The notes below the pieces were generated by a model. The model was not told the DNA's origin, searched no databases, and saw only the letters and a program-made list of their open reading frames with translations. The position numbers and the translations under genes are program-made. From positions 1 through 64,000 of the forward strand of contig NZ_FPAF01000002.1 of the NCBI RefSeq assembly GCF_900116295.1: DNA of 64,000 bases, written 5' to 3'. Positions 9,664 to 56,613 of this stretch are shown here, one piece after another. The stretch is from Bacillus sp. 103mf (GTDB lineage: Bacteria > Bacillota > Bacilli > Bacillales > Bacillaceae_G). Numbering within the stretch: position 1 is the first letter of the stretch; each line of letters starts with the position of its first letter.

Positions 9664-10602
9664 TCAATCTCTTAATTTTCTTCCTGTTAACTGTAAAAAT
9701 ACTGTTTCTAAACTCGCACTTTCGCTCATAATATTTTTTACTTTCATTCCTTCATTTACAAGGAGTGTAATGATTTTATCTAAATTTTCCACACCTTTTA
9801 ATACGACAACTTCTATTACTCCGTCTTTTATTATTACTTCTTTCATCCCTTCAATTTTAAAAAAGCTTTCTTCTACACCTGCTGTTATATGTTCACACTC
9901 TATAAAATAACGTTTTTCATCCGCAATATGCTTCTTAAGTTCTTCTTTCGTTCCTTCTGTAATAATCTCACCATGATCCATGATGATAATCCTTGTTGAT
10001 ATTTCTTCCACCTCCTCCATATAATGAGTTGTATAAATAATCGTAGATCCTTGTTCTTGTAATTGTTGAATCGACTGTAAAATATGATTTCGAGATTGCG
10101 GATCAATCCCAACTGTCGGTTCATCCATAATAATAACTTTTGGTTTATGTGCAATCGCACATGCTATATTCAGCCTTCTTTTCATTCCGCCTGAAAAAGT
10201 TTTCGGTTTTTCACTTTTCTTATCAAGCAGTCCAACAAATTGCAACGCTTCTTTTACAGATTGCTGTAATTGCGCTCCTTTCAAACCGTAAAGAGCAGCA
10301 AAAAACGCTACATTTTTTTCCGCTGATACATCTTCATAAATTGCTAAATCCTGCGGCACAATACCGAGGTTACGCTTTACATATCGTGCATGTTTTTTTA
10401 CATCTTTTCCTTCAAATAAAATTTCTCCCCCGTCGTACTGTAAAATGGTTGACAAAATATGAATAGTCGTACTTTTCCCAGCACCATTTGGACCAAGAAA
10501 ACATAAAATTTCCCCTTCTCTCACGTCAAACGAAATGCCTTTTAACGCTTTATAATGGCCGTAACATTTTTCTAATGCTCTCACTTCAATTAGCTGTTTC
10601 AT
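9664..10602 (-). CDS. ABC exporter ATP-binding protein
   Basis: This encodes a 312-residue ATPase of an ABC-2 exporter. It has Walker A GPNGAGKST, a Q-loop (IVPQDLAIYEDV), the signature FSGGMKRRL, Walker B VIIMDEPTVGIDP, and an H-loop (TTHYMEE), then a C-terminal extension of about 90 residues as in the DrrA/NatA-like class. I chose the ATG at 10602 because GAAAGGAGAGGATGAT precedes it; the upstream frame to 10656 has no ribosome site. It is the first gene of the operon with two permeases and the LAL regulator. Confidence 0.95.
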   Translation of the reverse strand: MKQLIEVRALEKCYGHYKALKGISFDVREGEILCFLGPNGAGKSTTIHILSTILQYDGGEILFEGKDVKKHARYVKRNLGIVPQDLAIYEDVSAEKNVAFFAALYGLKGAQLQQSVKEALQFVGLLDKKSEKPKTFSGGMKRRLNIACAIAHKPKVIIMDEPTVGIDPQSRNHILQSIQQLQEQGSTIIYTTHYMEEVEEISTRIIIMDHGEIITEGTKEELKKHIADEKRYFIECEHITAGVEESFFKIEGMKEVIIKDGVIEVVVLKGVENLDKIITLLVNEGMKVKNIMSESASLETVFLQLTGRKLRD

Positions 10603-10644
10603 ATCATCCTCTCCTTTCTCCTTCATTGTATAGATTTTATAAAT

Positions 10645-10675
10645 AAAAAAAATCAACCGAATGGTTGATTTTTAT
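10645..10675 (-). terminator. Hairpin with T run upstream of the ABC exporter operon
   Basis: Minus strand reads AATCAACC-ATTC-GGTTGATT followed by eight T. It lies 43 bp upstream of the exporter's start codon, so it either terminates read-through from fni or acts as an attenuator in the leader. The sequence does not decide between these. Confidence 0.65.
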
Positions 10676-10990
10676 CTCGCTATTCATTTGCAGTAAGACC
10701 CCACTAATGGAAGTTTTACTATATCCTATCCTAAACAAATAATAAAGGATTGTAACCAGTGTGAAATAAAGTGAAACTTTAATCAGTGGGGGTTTTCTTC
10801 ATCCCCCATTAATTATTAGCCCTCACCAATCGGGCGCATGCCAGCAGTTTATCTCCCACCGAACATTCTAGCCACTGGAGCTGGACAATGCTTTCGCTGA
10901 ATTTTGAGGTGGGAGTATTACTGCCCAAAAATAGCGGGATAAAAAATGCAGCGTTTAGGATTCCCTTTACATTAACTCCACCAAAAGGGT
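10676..10990. repeat. Family 2 hairpin-rich repeats (fragment plus inverted full copy)
   Basis: A fragment (CAGTAAGACCCCACTAATGGAAG, 10690-10720) is followed by an inverted complete copy: its minus strand begins TTATCCCGC, has GGGCAGTAATACTCCCACCTC and GGTGGGAGATAAACTGC pairing arms, and ends CCCCCACTGATTAAAGTTTCAC. Nested inverted arms predict a branched RNA. An open frame here (10809-11003) is an artefact of the repeat. No gene is supported between the exporter operon and fni. Confidence 0.7.
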
Positions 10991-11008
10991 TCCTAAAATG
11001 CATTTTAT

Positions 11009-12067
<1,059 letters not shown>

Positions 12068-12070
12068 TCA

Positions 12071-13219
12071 TTATTTCTTTAAATTTTTTAGCTGTTCTCC
12101 AATAATATCACCTAATTGGAATGTTGCAGAATCAGAAGTTGGTTCATATTTACTATAATCTTCTGTTTCATTATTTTCTTCAAGTGTCTCTTTTATACTT
12201 AAAGAAATACGTTTTTCTTCTGAATGAACTTCTAATACTTTTACTTTCACATCTTGCCCGATATTTAATACTTCATTCGGATTTTTCACATGACGGTTTG
12301 CAATTTGTGAAACGTGAACAAGTCCTTCTACACCTGGAAAAATCTCAACGAACGCTCCAAAAGTAACAAGGCGTTTTACTTTTCCATCTAATATATCGCC
12401 TACTTTTACTTGATTTGATACATTCGACCATGGACCTGGCTGCACCGCTTTCATAGATAAAGAAATACGCTGCGTATCAGCATCAACAGATAACACTTTT
12501 ACTTTTACAGTTTGTCCCTCTGTTAATACATCAGATGGTTGTTCTACACGATCATGAGAAATTTGAGAAATATGAACTAAGCCATCCACACCGCCAACAT
12601 TTACAAATGCTCCGAAGTCAGTTAAACGTTGAACCGTTCCCTCTACAACATCGCCTGCTTGTAAAGAAGAAACCGCTTCTTTTTTCTTCTTGTCTAGCTC
12701 TTGCTCTACAACTGCCTTATGAGAAAGAATAACGCGATTTTTTTCACGGTCTAATTCTACAATTTTTACTGCCAATGTTTTTCCTTTATAATTAGTAAAA
12801 TCTTCTACATAATGCATCTCTACAAGCGAAGCCGGAATAAAGCCACGAACACCAAGGTCAACAACTAGACCTCCGTTAACGATATCTTTAATTGTTACAT
12901 CAAATACTTCACCTGATGTAAACTGCCCTTGCAATACTTCCCATGCTTTTTCTGCATCTACTGCACGCTTAGACAACACTAAATCATCATCTTCCAATTT
13001 AATTACTTTCAATTCAAGAGTTTGTTCTACTTCTACAACATCGCTTGCTTTTTCAATATGAACATTTGCCAATTCACTAATTGGAATGACACCGTCAGTT
13101 TTGTACCCAACATTTACAAATACTTGCTTTTCTTCAACTTTTGTTACTGTACCTGTAACAATATCACCTACTTGTAATACCTTTGTGTTTACAACTTCTT
13201 CATTCATTTTTTCTACCAT
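12071..13219 (-). CDS. ypfD: 30S ribosomal protein S1 homologue (four S1 domains)
   Basis: This encodes a 382-residue RNA-binding protein with four successive S1 (OB-fold) domains, at about residues 16-86, 103-170, 188-257 and 273-343. Each has a GDIV-/GTV- type start, and the third and fourth contain FGAFV...GVDGLVHISQIS and FGAFVEIFPGVEGLVHVSQIA. It is shorter than the six-domain proteobacterial S1, as usual for Bacillus YpfD. AGGGAGGT precedes the ATG. It lies between cmk and fni, a conserved arrangement. Confidence 0.95.
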   Translation of the reverse strand: MVEKMNEEVVNTKVLQVGDIVTGTVTKVEEKQVFVNVGYKTDGVIPISELANVHIEKASDVVEVEQTLELKVIKLEDDDLVLSKRAVDAEKAWEVLQGQFTSGEVFDVTIKDIVNGGLVVDLGVRGFIPASLVEMHYVEDFTNYKGKTLAVKIVELDREKNRVILSHKAVVEQELDKKKKEAVSSLQAGDVVEGTVQRLTDFGAFVNVGGVDGLVHISQISHDRVEQPSDVLTEGQTVKVKVLSVDADTQRISLSMKAVQPGPWSNVSNQVKVGDILDGKVKRLVTFGAFVEIFPGVEGLVHVSQIANRHVKNPNEVLNIGQDVKVKVLEVHSEEKRISLSIKETLEENNETEDYSKYEPTSDSATFQLGDIIGEQLKNLKK

Positions 13220-13426: not shown

Positions 13427-14097
13427 ACGAATGTTGCAGATACAATATCCATAATCTTTTGAACTACCTCTTCAATAGATAAAGACGTTGTATCTAATTC
13501 AATTGCATCCTCAGCTTTCTTTAATGGAGACACTTCACGTTCCGAATCTAATTTATCACGGCGCGCAATTTCTTCTTTTAGTTGTTCTAAGTTAGAAGGA
13601 AATCCTTTTTGTATGTTTTCTAAATGTCTTCTTTCCGCTCGTTCTTCAACGGAAGCTAGCATAAAAATTTTCACTTCCGCATTCGGCAATACATGCGTCC
13701 CAATATCACGACCATCCATAACAACGCCGCCTTTTTCCGCTAAAGCTTCCTGACGACGTACCATTTCTTCACGTACAAGGCGGTGTCTTGCCACAATTGA
13801 TACGCGATTTGTTACTTCTGGTGTACGAATCACTTCCGATACATCTTTTCCGTTTAAAAAGACAAGCTGCGCATTTTCTCCATGCTGAAATGAAATGTCT
13901 ATATCCCTAATTATTTTCATTAACTTTTCTTCATTTTCAATATCAATACCTTGCTCTAATGCCGCATATGTTACAGTACGATACATTGCACCCGTATCAA
14001 TATAAACATAAGATAATTTTTTAGCAATAATTTTAGCAACCGTACTTTTCCCTGCAGCTGCCGGGCCATCAATTGCAATTGAAATTCGTTTCTCCAT
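13420..14097 (-). CDS. cmk: Cytidylate kinase
   Basis: Cmk phosphorylates CMP and dCMP with ATP in pyrimidine salvage and nucleotide supply. The 225-residue protein has P-loop GPAAAGKS (residues 10-17), [22 protein letters not shown] and RAERR...[10 protein letters not shown] motifs typical of bacterial CMP kinases. Length is normal. It is followed by its own terminator, so the S1-like gene downstream has a separate promoter within 13220-13390. Confidence 0.97.
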
Positions 14098-14308
14098 TGT
14101 AACACCCCATTTTTCACTTATAAGAACAGAAGGAAAAGCAGGTATTCCCTGCTTCCCTCATCATTGTTTCATTTTACATTAACAGGAAGTAAAAATCCGA
14201 TTGATTCCATTAACGATTGAATTTTTACACTAATAACCGTTTCACTTTACCCCGTTTCAAGTCCTCAACTATTGTAGCACACTCTTTCTTAGAAGCAAAC
14301 GAAAAAAA

Positions 14309-26603: not shown

Positions 26604-26980
<377 letters not shown>

Positions 26981-49985: not shown

Positions 49986-50091
49986 ATTGTCCTAATTTCA
50001 CGAAAAGTTCACATGAAATTCACACACTTCCTTTACAGTAATAACTAGTTAATCCTTTCCTTTACACATATAAAAGAGGAGAGTGCGTGAA

Positions 50092-50622
50092 ATGAAACAA
50101 GTAGGACAACCAATTCAAAACGAAAAACAATTAGAAAAAATCAAAGATATACTAATACAATCATCAAAGCGTGATGCTTTATTATTCGTATTAGCTGTGA
50201 ATTCCGGATTAAAAGTAAGTGAAATATTACAGTTAAAAGTTGGCGATGTTATCGATGAAAATGAGCATGTTCGTCATTCTATTTTGTTCTACAATGACAA
50301 AATGAAAAAGCATAAATGGTTCGCTGTAAATGAAGAATTGCAACATACAATTGAACAATATATGAAAGAACGAAAAGTATGGAAGCGAAATGAACCATTA
50401 TTAAAATCTCAAAAAGGAACAAAATCTATTACGAGACAACATGCTTGGTACATTTTAAACAAAGCGGCAAAAGAAGTTGGTTTAGAAGGGATTAGCTCAC
50501 ATACACTTCGCAAAACGTGGGGATATTGTGCTTATAAATCTGGCGTAGATATTGCATTTTTACAACACTTTTTTGATCATAGTACCCCATCCAAAACTTT
50601 AAAATACATCGGTATCGCTTAA
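50092..50622 (+). CDS. Minimal tyrosine recombinase-like protein
   Basis: This encodes a 176-residue protein consisting only of the catalytic domain of phage-integrase-type recombinases, without an N-terminal core-binding domain. Box II is intact: HTLRKT with His and Arg, FDHSTPSKTLKYI with His and the Tyr nucleophile. At box I the sequence is SGLKVSEILQLKVGDV, with lysine where the first catalytic arginine is expected. The ATG at 50092 follows GGAG by 10 nt; a GTG lies at 50083. No attachment site or mobile element is visible nearby. Confidence 0.8.
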   Translation: MKQVGQPIQNEKQLEKIKDILIQSSKRDALLFVLAVNSGLKVSEILQLKVGDVIDENEHVRHSILFYNDKMKKHKWFAVNEELQHTIEQYMKERKVWKRNEPLLKSQKGTKSITRQHAWYILNKAAKEVGLEGISSHTLRKTWGYCAYKSGVDIAFLQHFFDHSTPSKTLKYIGIA

Positions 50623-51226: not shown

Positions 51227-51272
51227 AAAGACAAAAAACCCTTATCTTTAAGATAAGAGTTTTTGTCTTTTA
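51227..51272. terminator. Bidirectional terminator
   Basis: AAAAGACAAAAAACCCTTATC / GATAAGAGTTTTTGTCTTTT, between the convergent ribbon-helix-helix-like and cytochrome genes. Confidence 0.88.
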
Positions 51273-51296: not shown

Positions 51297-53258
51297 CTAT
51301 TGAATTGATTTTACATATTCTGCGATTGCATGAACTTCCTGTTTTGATAGCTGCGGCTTTTCTTCATATTGATGCTTTTCTACTGCTTCTTCAACGTTTT
51401 TCGCACTACCATCATGTAAGTATGGGGCTGTTGCCCATGCACCGCGAAGTGTTGGAGGATCAAAATATCCTTTTGGTCTTTTATTTTGGAATCCCCCACG
51501 CGCATCACCATCATAATTTGTATCTGTTTCATTAGCAGTTCCAATGTTATAAAGGAAGTTTGTATTGTTCGTCGTTAATGTACCATTTTCATCAACAGCT
51601 TTTGTGCTATTTGTGAAATTATCCCCGCCATGACATGTTAAACAATTTGCCTTACCTTTAAACAACTGCTCTCCATCCTTCGCAGTAGGTGTTAATTCTC
51701 CATTTCCTTGACGATATGGACTTTTGGGGACAGGAAACGAATTCGGATCATCCAAAAAGGCTTGCAACGCATCATACATGTGCTGAACATCTTTTGGAAG
51801 TTCTTTTCCTGGATCAATTTCCATCATACCGCCCATTTCACCTTGTACGGTATGAATATAATCTGTAAACTCATCACGTGCGCCGTCCCACATAAACAAA
51901 CCTGTTTTTGTCGTTAAGACGTTGCTTGGTACATTTCGCTTCCCTCTTGGTGTCAGTAATGATAAACCATTAATTTCTCCATCACTATGACACGTTGCAC
52001 AGCTCATCCAGTTGTTTCCTGTAATCGCTGTTGCATATTTATCGCTATTTGCACTGTAGAAAATTTCTTTTCCTTCACGAACAAGTTTTGATAAGGAATC
52101 TTTTTCAATTAATTTAACTGTCTTCTTATCAGCTTTCACTTTTGCATATGAATCATCTCCCCCTGTTTCTAGAAAAGCAAGATCATGACTCATCGCATTA
52201 TGAACTACTAATGTGTTTTCTTTTGGAAGAAACGTAATACCGCGTGGATTACTTCCTGGAATGCGCCTTACAATTTGCGTTGCATTTCCTCCACGTGTTA
52301 AATCAAACATCATGAGATCTTCACTACCAGACATAACTACAAATGCCTTTGTGCCTTTTTCATTAAAAGCTACGTCATATGGATTTGATACAATCATCGT
52401 TTCATTTTTTGTATTTTTCACATTCATCGCTTCGAATAATTGTTTCCGCTGATTTGTAATTTCCTCATCTTTTTCTAAATCAATAATCGACACAGCTGGA
52501 AAAACTGTTTCTTCAAACTGAATGGGTGTATCCACATTTGTAAGCAGATGTGGAACCCAAGCCGTTTTCCCATCTGGTGCAATAACAAATTGCTCTAATG
52601 TATTTGGAATTCCTTGACTCTTTTTATGGTCTTCTTTATCCGGTGAAGATGCAAGTGTAATCACTTTCTTCACTTTATTACTCTCTGTATCTACAACACT
52701 AATTTTCCCCTCCAAATAGTGCGGTACATACAATTTCTTTCCGTCTTTTGTCATCGCAAGCGTACGTGGGCGATCGCCAATCTTAATCTTTTGTACCGTT
52801 TTCTTCTTCTCAATATCAATAACCGATACATTACCAGAACGAAAATTCGATACATATAACTTCGTTCCATTTGGATTTGTAACAACACCAAATGGCTCAA
52901 TTTCAGTCGAAATTCGATCAATGACTTTCTTCTTTTCAAGTGAAACAACATCTACTTTATTATCGTACATACAAGAAACATATAATTTCGTTTCATCAGG
53001 GCTCATTGTTAATTGTCTCGGTTCTTTTCCAACTGGAATCTCTGATACTACTTTTCTACTTTTTGCATCCATAATTGTTACTGTATTAATATCAATATTT
53101 GCTGTATAAATCCACTCTCCATTAGCACTCGTTACAATGTTATTACTATGAATAGCGGCGCTACGCTTCTCTTCTTTTCCTGATGTTTTCATCCCACAAC
53201 TCGCAAAAATCCCGATACATAGGAGTAATGTAATCGCCATAAACAATCGCTTCATCAT
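51297..53258 (-). CDS. Lipoprotein with YVTN beta-propeller and diheme cytochrome c peroxidase/MauG-like domain
   Basis: This encodes a 653-residue surface lipoprotein: signal peptide with lipidated cysteine near residue 21 (FASC), a seven-bladed-type propeller of YVTN repeats at about 40-380 (KLYVSNFRSGNVSVID, KLYVPHYLEGKISVVD), then a peroxidase-like domain with heme motifs CATCH (420-424) and CLTCH (539-543) and the family segment TLRGAWATAPYLHDGSA (about 603-619). That segment is typical of bacterial diheme peroxidases and MauG. It follows a Fur-controlled lipoprotein gene by 150 bp. The substrate is unknown: peroxide detoxification or oxidation of a partner protein are both possible. Confidence 0.9.
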   Translation of the reverse strand: MMKRLFMAITLLLCIGIFASCGMKTSGKEEKRSAAIHSNNIVTSANGEWIYTANIDINTVTIMDAKSRKVVSEIPVGKEPRQLTMSPDETKLYVSCMYDNKVDVVSLEKKKVIDRISTEIEPFGVVTNPNGTKLYVSNFRSGNVSVIDIEKKKTVQKIKIGDRPRTLAMTKDGKKLYVPHYLEGKISVVDTESNKVKKVITLASSPDKEDHKKSQGIPNTLEQFVIAPDGKTAWVPHLLTNVDTPIQFEETVFPAVSIIDLEKDEEITNQRKQLFEAMNVKNTKNETMIVSNPYDVAFNEKGTKAFVVMSGSEDLMMFDLTRGGNATQIVRRIPGSNPRGITFLPKENTLVVHNAMSHDLAFLETGGDDSYAKVKADKKTVKLIEKDSLSKLVREGKEIFYSANSDKYATAITGNNWMSCATCHSDGEINGLSLLTPRGKRNVPSNVLTTKTGLFMWDGARDEFTDYIHTVQGEMGGMMEIDPGKELPKDVQHMYDALQAFLDDPNSFPVPKSPYRQGNGELTPTAKDGEQLFKGKANCLTCHGGDNFTNSTKAVDENGTLTTNNTNFLYNIGTANETDTNYDGDARGGFQNKRPKGYFDPPTLRGAWATAPYLHDGSAKNVEEAVEKHQYEEKPQLSKQEVHAIAEYVKSIQ

Positions 53259-53408
53259 TTAGCCCTTCTCTCTTTATCTCACTCTACCGTACAGTCTCTC
53301 CTATCTATACAATGAAGATAGAAGAGAAGTAACCACCCTTCTTAGCCATCAATAAAAAACACATCATCTTCTGATAGAAATTTCACTTTGTTACACTCTT
53401 TCATAAAT
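53259..53408. other. Gap between the two Fur-region lipoprotein genes
   Basis: This 150-bp gap has no strong terminator. A family 2 tail-like segment (CTTCTGATAGAAATTTCACTTTG, 53366-53390) is visible, which could weaken read-through or act as a processing site. No independent promoter was recognised. Confidence 0.4.
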
Positions 53409-55469
53409 TTATTTTCCCTTTTTCACTTCAACATTGACAAGAACTGGAGCAATACCATACTTACCATGACCTGCTTGAATTTGCGGTACATTGTCCTTAT
53501 CTGTATTTCCAAGCTTCCCTTTTATATAAACATCGCCAGTATCCCAAAACTCACTTGTTTGCATTCCTTCTTTTAATGAAGGCCCATTGATTACTTGATC
53601 ATAAAAATCAACATAACGAGAAGTAATTGTTTTTTGTTCTAATGAATCGTATTTCGTTTTATCTGCATCTGTATTACTTAAATTTTGCAATGCAACACGC
53701 AAGACTGCTGATGCACTTCCAGCTGTATAAGGAGTATACTTCATTTCACCTTTTTTCGTTTCATATGCATGTGCTTCTTTATTCCACATTTTACGATCTA
53801 CTAAGTCATAAAGTTTACGTGCTTCTTCACGATACGTTTCATCTTTTGTTGCTAAAAAGGCTGCAGTCAACCCTCGAATTGCTCCTAGCTGCGCTTCTAA
53901 TGTAACCGGATCAGTATCTTGTCCTTTTCCAATTGTATAACTATTTGCCATAAATCCATCTTTTGTCTTCATATTTTTTAATAAGAAGTCTGCTTGCGTC
54001 TTCATCATTTGAAGAGCACGTTTACCTTCTTCTGTTTGTAAGCCTTGTGCCTCTGCTCCGCTCGCATATCCAACTGGCATACCATCAATAGCACGTTGGA
54101 ATATACGAAGCGCTTCTACCATATAACTTGCATCAAACGTATCAATACGTTTGCCTTGTTCTGTTCCGCTGTGCTCTGTAACAAACGCTCCTGTTTCTTT
54201 ATTATAGTGCATCGCTTCAATATTTTTAAAGACTTGTAACATGACATCACGATTTAATGAATAAGGATCATCTGCCTTTGCATCGTTAGCCGTTTCCCCA
54301 TCTATATTTTCTGTTGCCGCTTTTGCAAACGGTGCCCCATCAAATGCTGCTTGGAACGCTGGATTTACATTTTTATTACCTGGACGCTGGTCTACCATTC
54401 CGAAAAATTCAGCAGTTGGCCACAACATCATCCATTGATCCCGAAGCACACTGCGCGCGTCTTTCACTTCTAATTGACTAGCTTTAGCAATACCATTCTT
54501 GTTCTCTTCCGTTACTTTAATCTCATGAGGTAAGTAAACGAGACCGCTCGCAGGACTATATTTACTTCCTGCCCCGTTTGTTAATTGTTTTGTATTTGCA
54601 TCATAAAATAGCCCATCGCGAATATATGAAAGTTTATTCCAAATTTCCTCTGTTAAAATCACACCTTGCATACCATCAGCACTACTTTTCCCAAGACGAA
54701 TATTCGAATCTTGATCTTGCGTGTTTGATGTAGCTTCTAATTCTTCATCCTTATCTACTGTATGAAAACCACCTAAAAAATCCCCTGCCCATAATGCTTG
54801 TTTTAAAAATGCAGAACCGTATGCTGCTGGTGTTAATGTTTTATTCATTTTTGAACGATCCCAGCGTAGTGTTTTAAAATCCATCTGGAAAGATGGTACA
54901 TATGTCTTATCATCATTTTCTGCATATACAGACGTATCTACTTTTTGTATATAATGCGGATCACCACCAGCATACTCCATAAATGTTGGATACATATTTG
55001 CAAAGATTTCTTTACGCGGATATCCTACACTATCTGCTAATGTATAAAATCTCTCTTCTAGCCAAGATGGTACTTCTTTATTTTCTTCTTTTGTCATCTT
55101 TTGTACAATTGGTGCATGAAGTAAATGGAAACCAAGTCCTGATTTTTCTACTACCTCATACATGCCTTCTTCTGAGTACTCATAAGACTCGATACCAGCC
55201 ATATAATCAAATTTTGTTGGTTTATTTCGTTTTTTTGCATCTAAAATATCTAAATCTAAACCTAAACCTTCTGCTAAAGGTTCACCGGCTAATTCAAATT
55301 CTGCATATGCAAACATGTTTGCTGCTGTATCAAATGTATAATCCGTTACCGGTACACCATATGTATTTTTTTCTTTTGCCGTCTCTTCTTTTTTATTAGA
55401 ACACCCTACTGAAAGTAATAATGAGGAAACAACAGCAACTGTCGTCATCACTTTCCATGGCTTTTTCAT
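53409..55469 (-). CDS. Fur-controlled lipoprotein of unknown family
   Basis: This encodes a 686-residue lipoprotein: signal peptide, lipidated cysteine at 23 (SVGC), a short KE-rich linker, and a large soluble domain. The C-terminal half is helical and reminiscent of alpha/alpha toroid proteins (DTFDASYMVEALRIF, VTLEAQLGAIRGLTAAF, YTAGSASAVLRVAL), and it contains many Trp, Tyr and Met residues. I do not recognise the family. A SigA promoter with a perfect Fur box lies upstream, and the diheme-cytochrome lipoprotein gene is downstream. It may bind or deliver iron, or be the oxidation target of that cytochrome; neither is shown. Confidence 0.85.
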   Translation of the reverse strand: MKKPWKVMTTVAVVSSLLLSVGCSNKKEETAKEKNTYGVPVTDYTFDTAANMFAYAEFELAGEPLAEGLGLDLDILDAKKRNKPTKFDYMAGIESYEYSEEGMYEVVEKSGLGFHLLHAPIVQKMTKEENKEVPSWLEERFYTLADSVGYPRKEIFANMYPTFMEYAGGDPHYIQKVDTSVYAENDDKTYVPSFQMDFKTLRWDRSKMNKTLTPAAYGSAFLKQALWAGDFLGGFHTVDKDEELEATSNTQDQDSNIRLGKSSADGMQGVILTEEIWNKLSYIRDGLFYDANTKQLTNGAGSKYSPASGLVYLPHEIKVTEENKNGIAKASQLEVKDARSVLRDQWMMLWPTAEFFGMVDQRPGNKNVNPAFQAAFDGAPFAKAATENIDGETANDAKADDPYSLNRDVMLQVFKNIEAMHYNKETGAFVTEHSGTEQGKRIDTFDASYMVEALRIFQRAIDGMPVGYASGAEAQGLQTEEGKRALQMMKTQADFLLKNMKTKDGFMANSYTIGKGQDTDPVTLEAQLGAIRGLTAAFLATKDETYREEARKLYDLVDRKMWNKEAHAYETKKGEMKYTPYTAGSASAVLRVALQNLSNTDADKTKYDSLEQKTITSRYVDFYDQVINGPSLKEGMQTSEFWDTGDVYIKGKLGNTDKDNVPQIQAGHGKYGIAPVLVNVEVKKGK

Positions 55470-55494
55470 CTATTCCCGCCCCTTTAAATGAAAT

Positions 55495-55509
55495 TGATAA
55501 TTATTATCA
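55495..55509. promoter_or_regulatory. Fur operator 1
   Basis: TGATAATTATTATCA matches the Bacillus Fur 7-1-7 box TGATAATNATTATCA at every position. It lies at about +7 to +21 relative to the predicted start of transcription, a normal repressing position. Confidence 0.88.
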
Positions 55510-55522
55510 CATAAACTATATT

Positions 55523-55551
55523 ATTATATGATTAAATTAATTTTTTGTAAA
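55523..55551 (-). promoter_or_regulatory. SigA promoter of the lipoprotein-cytochrome unit
   Basis: Minus strand TTTACA (55546-55551), 17 bp spacer, TATAAT (55523-55528), about 55 bp upstream of the start codon. Confidence 0.75.
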
Positions 55552-55595: not shown

Positions 55596-55614
55596 GATAA
55601 TGATAACCATTATC
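55596..55614. promoter_or_regulatory. Fur operator 2
   Basis: GATAATGATAACCATTATC matches the classical 19-bp Fur box GATAATGATAATCATTATC at 18 of 19 positions. It lies about 45 bp upstream of the promoter's -35 element. Confidence 0.8.
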
Positions 55615-55767: not shown

Positions 55768-56613
55768 TCAGTCAAATAAATTTAGTTGTTCAGGTTTAGG
55801 TTCCCCATACGTAACGCCAAACATCTCCATTAGCTGTTTCGCATTATCTGCTGCGTCTCCGCCAGAGTTATTATTAAATAGAAGATAAACTTCCTTTGTT
55901 TTTGTTTTCAATTCTTCTATCCTTTCTACCCATTCTTCTAACTCTTGTTTGTTATAACGATATAAACAGCGAACTGCCCGCCAATTCTCTCCCGTGTTCA
56001 GCCAGCCATGTACATTGCGTCCATGAAATCGAACTAAGGTCATTTGTTCATGCGTGGCTTCTAGCACAATTGGAATAGAGCCAATTCCTGCTTGCGGTTC
56101 ATCACAAATCGTATGAATCCAACCTTCTTGTTTCATAAATTGTAATGTTCGATTACGAAATTGTGGATCAAACCAAGTTTGATTCCGAAATTCTAATGAA
56201 CATGGGATACCTTTCATTTTTTCTTTCGTATAACGTAATAAGTCCACATTTTTCTTTTGACAATCAAACCAAGGTGGATACTGGAATAAAACCATTTTTA
56301 ACTTATTGGCTTTTTGAAGAGGAGCAATTGACTCTTTAAATACGTGAAACATATCGTCAATGTTTGCAAAAGGAATTTCTCCGCGCATATGGCCTGTCAT
56401 TCCTTGATAAGCCTTCACAATAAACGAAAAATTTGATGGTGTTTCTAAAGCCCATTTCTCATAATTTCTTACAGGCTGCATAGCATAAAAAGAACTATCT
56501 ACTTCTACAATTGGAAAATATTCACTATATGTTTGCAGTTTATGCTTCATTTCATATGCATCCTTATATAAAGAGTCGTGATCCCCCCATCCTGTTAACC
56601 CAATAGAAATCAT
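55768..56613 (-). CDS. DUF72 family protein (YunF-like)
   Basis: This encodes a 281-residue TIM-barrel protein of the DUF72 family: ISIGLTGWGDH at the start, VEVDSSFYAMQP, SLEFRNQTWFD, and LVRFHGRN. The family's activity is not established. It is monocistronic, and its terminator isolates it from the Fur-regulated unit downstream. There is no signal peptide. Confidence 0.88.
   Translation of the reverse strand: MISIGLTGWGDHDSLYKDAYEMKHKLQTYSEYFPIVEVDSSFYAMQPVRNYEKWALETPSNFSFIVKAYQGMTGHMRGEIPFANIDDMFHVFKESIAPLQKANKLKMVLFQYPPWFDCQKKNVDLLRYTKEKMKGIPCSLEFRNQTWFDPQFRNRTLQFMKQEGWIHTICDEPQAGIGSIPIVLEATHEQMTLVRFHGRNVHGWLNTGENWRAVRCLYRYNKQELEEWVERIEELKTKTKEVYLLFNNNSGGDAADNAKQLMEMFGVTYGEPKPEQLNLFD

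Follow-up and report, generated by a model that had tools for sequence, protein, structure and literature searches.

The window analysed here, a stretch of 64,000 nucleotides of Bacillus sp. 103mf (contig NZ_FPAF01000002.1, positions 1 to 64,000), encodes two lipoproteins, here called A and B, which we read, with a probability of roughly 0.62, as a Fur-controlled, surface-anchored redox and handover module serving an FTR1-family iron permease that is not of the EfeUOB type. Permeases of the FTR1 family occur in yeast as well as in many bacteria, and the partners best known for them control the redox state of iron. An original prediction, made from the sequence of the window, had proposed a role in iron acquisition, and this role is supported by Fur-like sites before A and by a strong link of the pair to FTR1 permeases across genomes. 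The genes are adjacent on the minus strand, A followed by B, and their open reading frames (ORFs) and lipobox-type signal peptides confirm the two neighbouring lipoprotein genes that had been called.

53409-55469, minus strand: gene A, ORF of 686 amino acids, lipoprotein of an unnamed family
51297-53258, minus strand: gene B, ORF of 653 amino acids, lipoprotein with a beta-propeller and a diheme cytochrome c part (Pfam and NCBIfam matches)

Of 348 genomes drawn evenly from the order of Ectobacillus, 29 contain A, and the same 29 contain B (E-value 1e-60 or better). FTR1 was found in 142 of the 348 genomes, comprising 29/29 with A-B and 113/319 without (Fisher 8e-13). Beside or near FTR1 lies the gene of an unnamed secreted protein, given the working name YSY, which is present in 82 of the 348 genomes, 29/29 with A-B against 53/319 without (Fisher 7e-21). 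Among 39 genomes of Brevibacillales, the order of Brevibacillus thermoruber, four contain A and five contain YSY, including those four (YSY in 4/4 with A versus 1/35 without; p 6e-5); B stands beside A in three of the four, and the fourth was not searched for B. FTR1 is also present in 20 of the 22 genomes found through A, so that 44 of the 46 distinct A genomes (29 drawn and 22 found, six of them in both sets, plus one further Brevibacillales genome) have FTR1 next to or near YSY. As it is almost confined to permease carriers and lies behind Fur-like sites, A-B looks like an optional redox helper of FTR1.

YSY is encoded beside FTR1 in all 49 Bacillales loci fetched, and a Fur-like site with at most three mismatches precedes it in 49/49.

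L078-L126, and L035 at 13723-14283: YSY, secreted protein beside FTR1

The protein has a C-terminal end resembling a membrane anchor in the two rows inspected in full, and the one YSY row scanned against Pfam gave no match. YSY may itself be a new subunit of FTR1 systems. Kinship with EfeO was considered and rejected at an hhalign probability of 0.9%, a value from shallow alignments that distant kinship could escape. In four loci (L127, L128, L132 and L134) a further, longer secreted protein is encoded beside YSY, and it matches the YSY profile in L127 and L134.

The YSY-FTR1 system is not EfeUOB, which is described in one account as an FTR1-family permease with extracytoplasmic heme-containing and carrier proteins (PMC9174327), and whose genes, according to another, often lie in iron-regulated operons (PMC3577903). 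The two systems are alike in that relatives of the window have an FTR1/EfeU permease in the same genome (29/29 drawn; 20/22 found through A), whereas A-B pairs an unnamed lipoprotein with a diheme propeller protein of the c type, at a locus apart from the permease. With E. coli queries, neither EfeO nor EfeB was found beside FTR1 in the stretches of about 10 kb covering the 49 loci, although a very distant EfeO could escape such a search. No DyP-type peroxidase (the family of EfeB) was found in any of the 49 YSY-FTR1 genomes, the order-wide base rate of DyP not having been measured; controls in E. coli, B. subtilis and C. glutamicum were positive. EfeB is therefore not the hidden partner of these permeases. 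A-B and EfeB as alternatives to each other in YSY-FTR1 genomes was also rejected, as the 20 control genomes without A-B likewise have no DyP peroxidase.

A and B belong together in Bacillota. The original prediction would have failed if the two genes parted in other genomes, and they remain paired throughout: in the 29 drawn genomes they share a contig and a strand, and by coordinate comparison their matched ends are separated by no more than about 130 nucleotides; among 24 loci compared A is followed by B in 23/23 from Bacillota, the 24th being an Aeromonas plasmid with A alone. The pair is sparsely distributed, with A in two of 398 genomes of a phylum-wide draw, one of them the genome on which the draw was centred. 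Beyond Bacillota the searches covered plasmid records, viral contigs and E. coli genomes, together with one scan of species genomes for A, which gave 22 confirmed loci, all of Bacillota. Five of 72,556 plasmid records contain A (four Aeromonas, one Anoxybacillus), and none of 11 candidates in viral contigs was confirmed. Among the matches listed from the open-licence literature, none deals with the A-B pair, with A or with the FTR1 link.

The Anoxybacillus record is a 258-kb plasmid of Anoxybacillus amylolyticus (L001, 7884-11982) bearing A-B near menaquinone genes, which fits the scattered distribution. Its A gene is preceded by genes for a DUF2325 protein and a protein of 170 amino acids, and ORFs of like length and spacing occur upstream of A in L006-L010. 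In Parageobacillus thermantarcticus (L006, about 10060-12116) B is read in two pieces, and the genome has no FTR1 or YSY match.

The nearest gene upstream of A in the window encodes a DUF72 protein (55768-56613, minus strand), and the gap of about 300 nucleotides between the two genes contains both Fur-like sites and the best promoter-like site for A.

55596-55614, strand unspecified: Fur box, one mismatch against the 19-base consensus
55490-55508, strand unspecified: second Fur-like site, three mismatches, just downstream of the promoter-like site of A
55523-55551, minus strand: promoter-like site TTTACA-17-TATAAT for A-B, the best for A, 11/12
51234-51264, minus strand: terminator-like hairpin after B, pattern match

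The site at 55596-55614 had been described as a perfect Fur box; the site is there, one mismatch short of perfect. It lies upstream of the promoter-like site of A and overlaps a promoter-like site on the plus strand. A scan of the window for the Fur consensus with at most three mismatches gave four matches against 0.06 expected, two of the four being one site read on both strands; a further Fur-like site with three mismatches is located at 26619-26637. As classes, promoter-like matches (14 against 16.5 expected in shuffles) and terminator-like matches (2 against 2.0) show no excess, and the promoter-like site of A and the hairpin after B are therefore assigned by position only. The window pattern scan found no terminator-like hairpin between A and B.

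A Fur-like site with at most five mismatches precedes A in 23/23 Bacillota loci (at most four in 19; 320-nucleotide stretches) and in 26/29 drawn genomes (at most four in 25; 290-nucleotide stretches), six genomes being common to both sets and the start codon used falling inside gene A for a few rows. Among the other ORFs of the same loci, 1/188 has such a site at five mismatches or fewer.

Protein B begins with a lipobox-type signal peptide (FASC, Cys21, read from the sequence), followed by a propeller and a diheme half. The motifs CATCH at 420, CLTCH at 539 and APYLHDGSA are all present as first reported.

52149-53147, minus strand: propeller part of B, residues about 38-370 (limits approximate), YVTN/lactonase repeats; homology to the Aeromonas protein spans the propeller
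51987-52001, minus strand: first heme site CATCH, residues 420-424, in the motif NNWMSCxxCH (alignment); kept in the Aeromonas relative
51888-51890, minus strand: Trp457 of the WDG motif, in 20/20 rows, aligned with the Trp of FWDGR in the diheme peroxidase 1nml
51837-51839, minus strand: Glu474 of QxEMGG, in 20/20 rows, aligned with the Glu of the EM motif in 1nml
51630-51644, minus strand: second heme site CLTCH, residues 539-543 (alignment)
51402-51428, minus strand: APYLHDGSA motif, residues 611-619 (sequence and PDB alignment)
51372-51374, minus strand: His629, candidate sixth ligand of the second heme, His in 15/20 rows

Both CxxCH sites are invariant in 20/20 rows. The Glu of 1nml that aligns with Glu474 is the distal Glu of the first-heme pocket. 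His629 occupies the column where 1nml has Met, and in the five of 20 rows that lack it a His sits in a four-residue insertion instead. The second heme of B therefore looks bis-His, like the heme reported for hydrazine synthase gamma-II in the account of that enzyme (PMC12758564).

The best NCBIfam matches of the propeller are TIGR03866 (PQQ-associated; 112.6 of 287.3 bits, below the cut-off) and TIGR02276 (YVTN), and its best PDB match is the surface layer protein 1l0q, with hydrazine synthase beta in second place; YVTN/PQQ-associated propellers resemble this part of B but lack a diheme half. For the diheme half, NCBIfam ranks MbnH closest (E 1.4e-18) and hydrazine synthase gamma next, while the structures rank hydrazine synthase gamma first, then the di-heme enzyme 6e1c (1e-16), which we take to be MbnH, and then diheme peroxidases. 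The cut-offs of MbnH (67.1 of 362.85 bits) and MauG (37.6 of 443.85 bits) are both missed widely. B shares with MbnH, MauG and the bacterial diheme cytochrome c peroxidases the two CxxCH sites, the WDG Trp, the aligned Glu and the APYxHDGS motif, and differs from them in its fused N-terminal propeller and in a candidate second-heme ligand that is His rather than Met or Tyr. Met is the sixth ligand of the second heme in bacterial diheme cytochrome c peroxidase, and Tyr is the second-heme ligand in MauG.

B has the same domain order as hydrazine synthase beta-gamma, a propeller followed by a gamma-type diheme half, but falls far below the cut-off of the hydrazine synthase fusion model (92.9 of 1250 bits), has a gene neighbour (A) that matches no family, and stands in an iron context. 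A hydrazine synthase alpha-subunit gene was not found beside B, the neighbour A matching nothing, and no search for it was made elsewhere. Beta-gamma homologs of hydrazine synthase occur in species affiliated with Bacillus, and the passages of the source that concern them treat them only as relatives of the anammox enzyme (PMC12758564).

Protein A also has a lipobox-type signal peptide read from the sequence (LSVGC, Cys23).

55401-55403, minus strand: Cys23 of A, lipid-attachment cysteine of the LSVGC lipobox; Cys in 19/22 aligned rows, the other three rows, as cut, beginning after Cys23

A was rightly called unrecognised, as its single Pfam match (E 0.024) is under the cut-off, NCBIfam gave no match and the PDB sequences gave none up to E 1; no family with an unrelated established role was found for it. 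Of the earlier description of A as rich in Trp and Tyr, the part on Tyr stands (4.96%, 34 residues), while Trp makes up 1.31% (nine residues). Four of the Trp residues (W203, W227, W346 and W350) are invariant in 22/22 aligned rows. The relatives of A share 54-74% identity in the 23 Bacillota loci and 43% in Aeromonas.

Imelysin clusters, in which proteins implicated in iron uptake are encoded with a diheme peroxidase family of the DUF1111 type in the account given in PMC3143127, resemble A-B in joining an iron-linked protein to a diheme partner, but A is not imelysin-like by profile. As an imelysin A was rejected (no Pfam match; hhalign probability 0.2% against E. coli EfeO), and so was kinship of A with YSY (0.6%); both probabilities come from shallow alignments, which distant kinship could escape.

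Relatives of B, YSY and A are also encoded in Aeromonas caviae, where the first two stand in a row with the permease.

Aeromonas caviae row, one strand: 149-amino-acid membrane protein, B relative, EfeU/FTR1 permease, flavoprotein, YSY relative

The B relative (989 amino acids; 30% identity over 537 columns, E 2e-72) has the propeller and the first heme in common with B, while a multiheme region forms the rest of the protein; the EfeU/FTR1 permease gene follows directly. The YSY relative is a secreted protein of 186 amino acids (E 1.9e-27), and the 149-amino-acid membrane protein has a weak DUF4405 match (E 0.014). The A relative (666 amino acids, 43%) lies elsewhere in the record, one gene from entC- and entE-type siderophore genes, and retains the same four Trp residues. 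Fur sites in the A. caviae record are weak, the siderophore promoter excepted. In E. coli, a DNA search for the Aeromonas genes gave no relatives. Another copy of the A relative is located between insertion sequences on a mobilizable plasmid (L002, pMCR5_045096, 7935-11268); it is 99% identical to the A. caviae copy with glgC adjoining in both, which suggests transfer of a chromosomal piece to the plasmid. The A. caviae record itself, NZ_AP026896.1, is filed as plasmid pKAM479_3, is nearly unannotated (18 listed features), and at 4.9 Mb looks like a whole chromosome.

As an FTR1 helper, B would act outside the membrane, its first heme changing the redox state of iron; the chemistry is placed at this heme because it is common with the Aeromonas relative, and B would most likely be a ferroxidase using peroxide or oxygen. 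The second heme, and perhaps the propeller, may serve electron passage or partner docking. A would be the binding protein for iron or an iron chelate at the outer face, passing it to YSY and FTR1. The pair would then do, with other components, what the peroxidase and the carrier do in EfeUOB, or what the multicopper oxidase does in yeast Fet3-Ftr1. Going by the conserved residues, the peroxidase-type pocket favours oxidation of Fe(II) by B; Fe(III) reduction would likewise agree with the apparently bis-His second heme and with the wiring in Aeromonas.

Several observations weigh against A-B as a helper of FTR1. The drawn genomes are related and hence not independent of one another. FTR1 and YSY are both missing from two genomes of the set of 22 found through A, namely a metagenome-assembled genome in which A and B are both open (G407) and one in which B is read in two pieces (G002). 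A-B is absent from 53 of the 82 YSY genomes and present in 29, so that the permease can do without this optional pair. A-B and YSY-FTR1 form separate loci in Bacillota: FTR1 is about 11 kb from A-B in Aneurinibacillus, and on other contigs or at least 200 kb away in the 29 drawn genomes. In four genomes (G427, G505, G559 and G699) the listed coordinates place the two loci about 203-220 kb apart, a spacing that hints at some shared inheritance. In favour of the link, A-B is scattered on a tree of FTR1 plus YSY, a permease gene tree and not a species tree, which was built from the 29 genomes with A-B and from 20 controls among the 53 YSY genomes that lack it; these controls had been chosen among strong-FTR1 genomes before YSY was known. 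A-B requires 15 changes on this tree of 49 genomes, at least 11 of them forced by well-supported branches, and 229/500 label shuffles are as low, so that a single shared ancestor fails to explain the nesting of A-B genomes within those with YSY.

On the side of regulation, three of the 29 drawn A loci have no convincing Fur site (best 6, 7 and 9 mismatches), the Aeromonas row of B, FTR1 and YSY fits the Fur box weakly (six mismatches at best), and on the Aeromonas plasmid the A relative has no Fur box (eight mismatches). As to chemistry, the A. caviae B relative is without the aligned Trp and Glu of the peroxidase site, and peroxidase chemistry is therefore not the shared core of these proteins. 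Three more distant B relatives are found on other plasmids in unrelated contexts, so that an association of all propeller-diheme proteins with iron is not supported.

Unlikely, though deserving of consideration, is that B is a reductase, in which membrane electrons would reach Fe(III) or ferric chelates so that iron is freed from the carrier A and imported. The apparently bis-His second heme, as in hydrazine synthase gamma-II, would suit such a role, and the Aeromonas B relative is tied to a multiheme region and to the 149-amino-acid protein with the weak DUF4405 match. Against it, the FTR1 systems known best have, as presented in one account, an extracytoplasmic oxidase (Fet3) or peroxidase (EfeB) (PMC9174327). 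Not all FTR1 partners are of this kind, P19 being an exception. Furthermore, Trp457 and Glu474 are invariant in B, and as far as the ORFs show there is no gene for a membrane electron donor beside A-B in the window.

The original prediction had suggested another chemistry, in which B, like MauG or MbnH, oxidises Trp or Tyr residues of A; an iron-binding or redox site could arise in this way. The adjacency of the two lipoprotein genes, the matches of the diheme half to the MbnH model and to 6e1c, and the four invariant Trp residues of A agree with such chemistry; however, the A relative of Aeromonas has these four Trp residues too, in an organism whose B relative is without the Trp/Glu pocket. 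MauG and MbnH have their substrate protein next door, the tryptophan tryptophylquinone (TTQ) subunit or MbnP. No recognised substrate protein of this kind was found beside B, A having no significant Pfam or NCBIfam match and no partner domain in either database. With the MbnH and MauG cut-offs widely missed and a His as the candidate second-heme ligand in place of the Tyr of MauG, this oxidation of A appears quite improbable.

It is very unlikely that the pair processes a sugar or a siderophore-like ligand, with A as a carbohydrate-active (alpha/alpha)-toroid protein. Most of the faint matches of A point that way: the 22 aligned members gave PF22422 (5/22), C5-epim_C (three) and GH127 (one) in Pfam, with best E-values of 0.016-0.051, families which we take to have (alpha/alpha)-toroid folds, and at E 0.04-0.18 the A profile drew structures of cellobiose epimerase and of the GH88 type, the GH88-type match covering residues 482-579. 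None of these matches is significant, the other faint ones are to unrelated proteins (SPO22, YvyC and CdiI), hhalign against a GlcNAc-2-epimerase-family protein gave a probability of 4.9%, and the FTR1 link would be left unexplained. That B merely removes hydrogen peroxide in iron stress, with A an unrelated passenger lipoprotein, is scarcely credible: B does match diheme peroxidases with conserved Trp and Glu, but A and B never part (29/29 drawn genomes, 23/23 Bacillota loci) and a general peroxidase need not track FTR1-YSY genomes.

Apart from this locus, a short stand-alone tyrosine recombinase of about 178 amino acids, with a Phage_integrase match over most of its length, is encoded at 50083-50622 of the window, just downstream of a histidine kinase gene.

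If A-B does serve FTR1, it might represent a third mode of FTR1 beside the multicopper oxidases and EfeB/EfeO, a tentative proposal whose odds we put at somewhat below even: a heme ferroxidase resembling hydrazine synthase beta-gamma, with iron passing via A and YSY to FTR1, carried as an optional two-gene cassette and having in Aeromonas a wired version with a multiheme tail. The findings indicate a new set of FTR1 partners (A, B and YSY), two of which are without a family name, and tie a hydrazine-synthase-like protein to iron rather than to nitrogen. An uncharacterised gene pair behind Fur-like sites in Bacillus sp. 103mf would in this way become part of a testable four-gene system.

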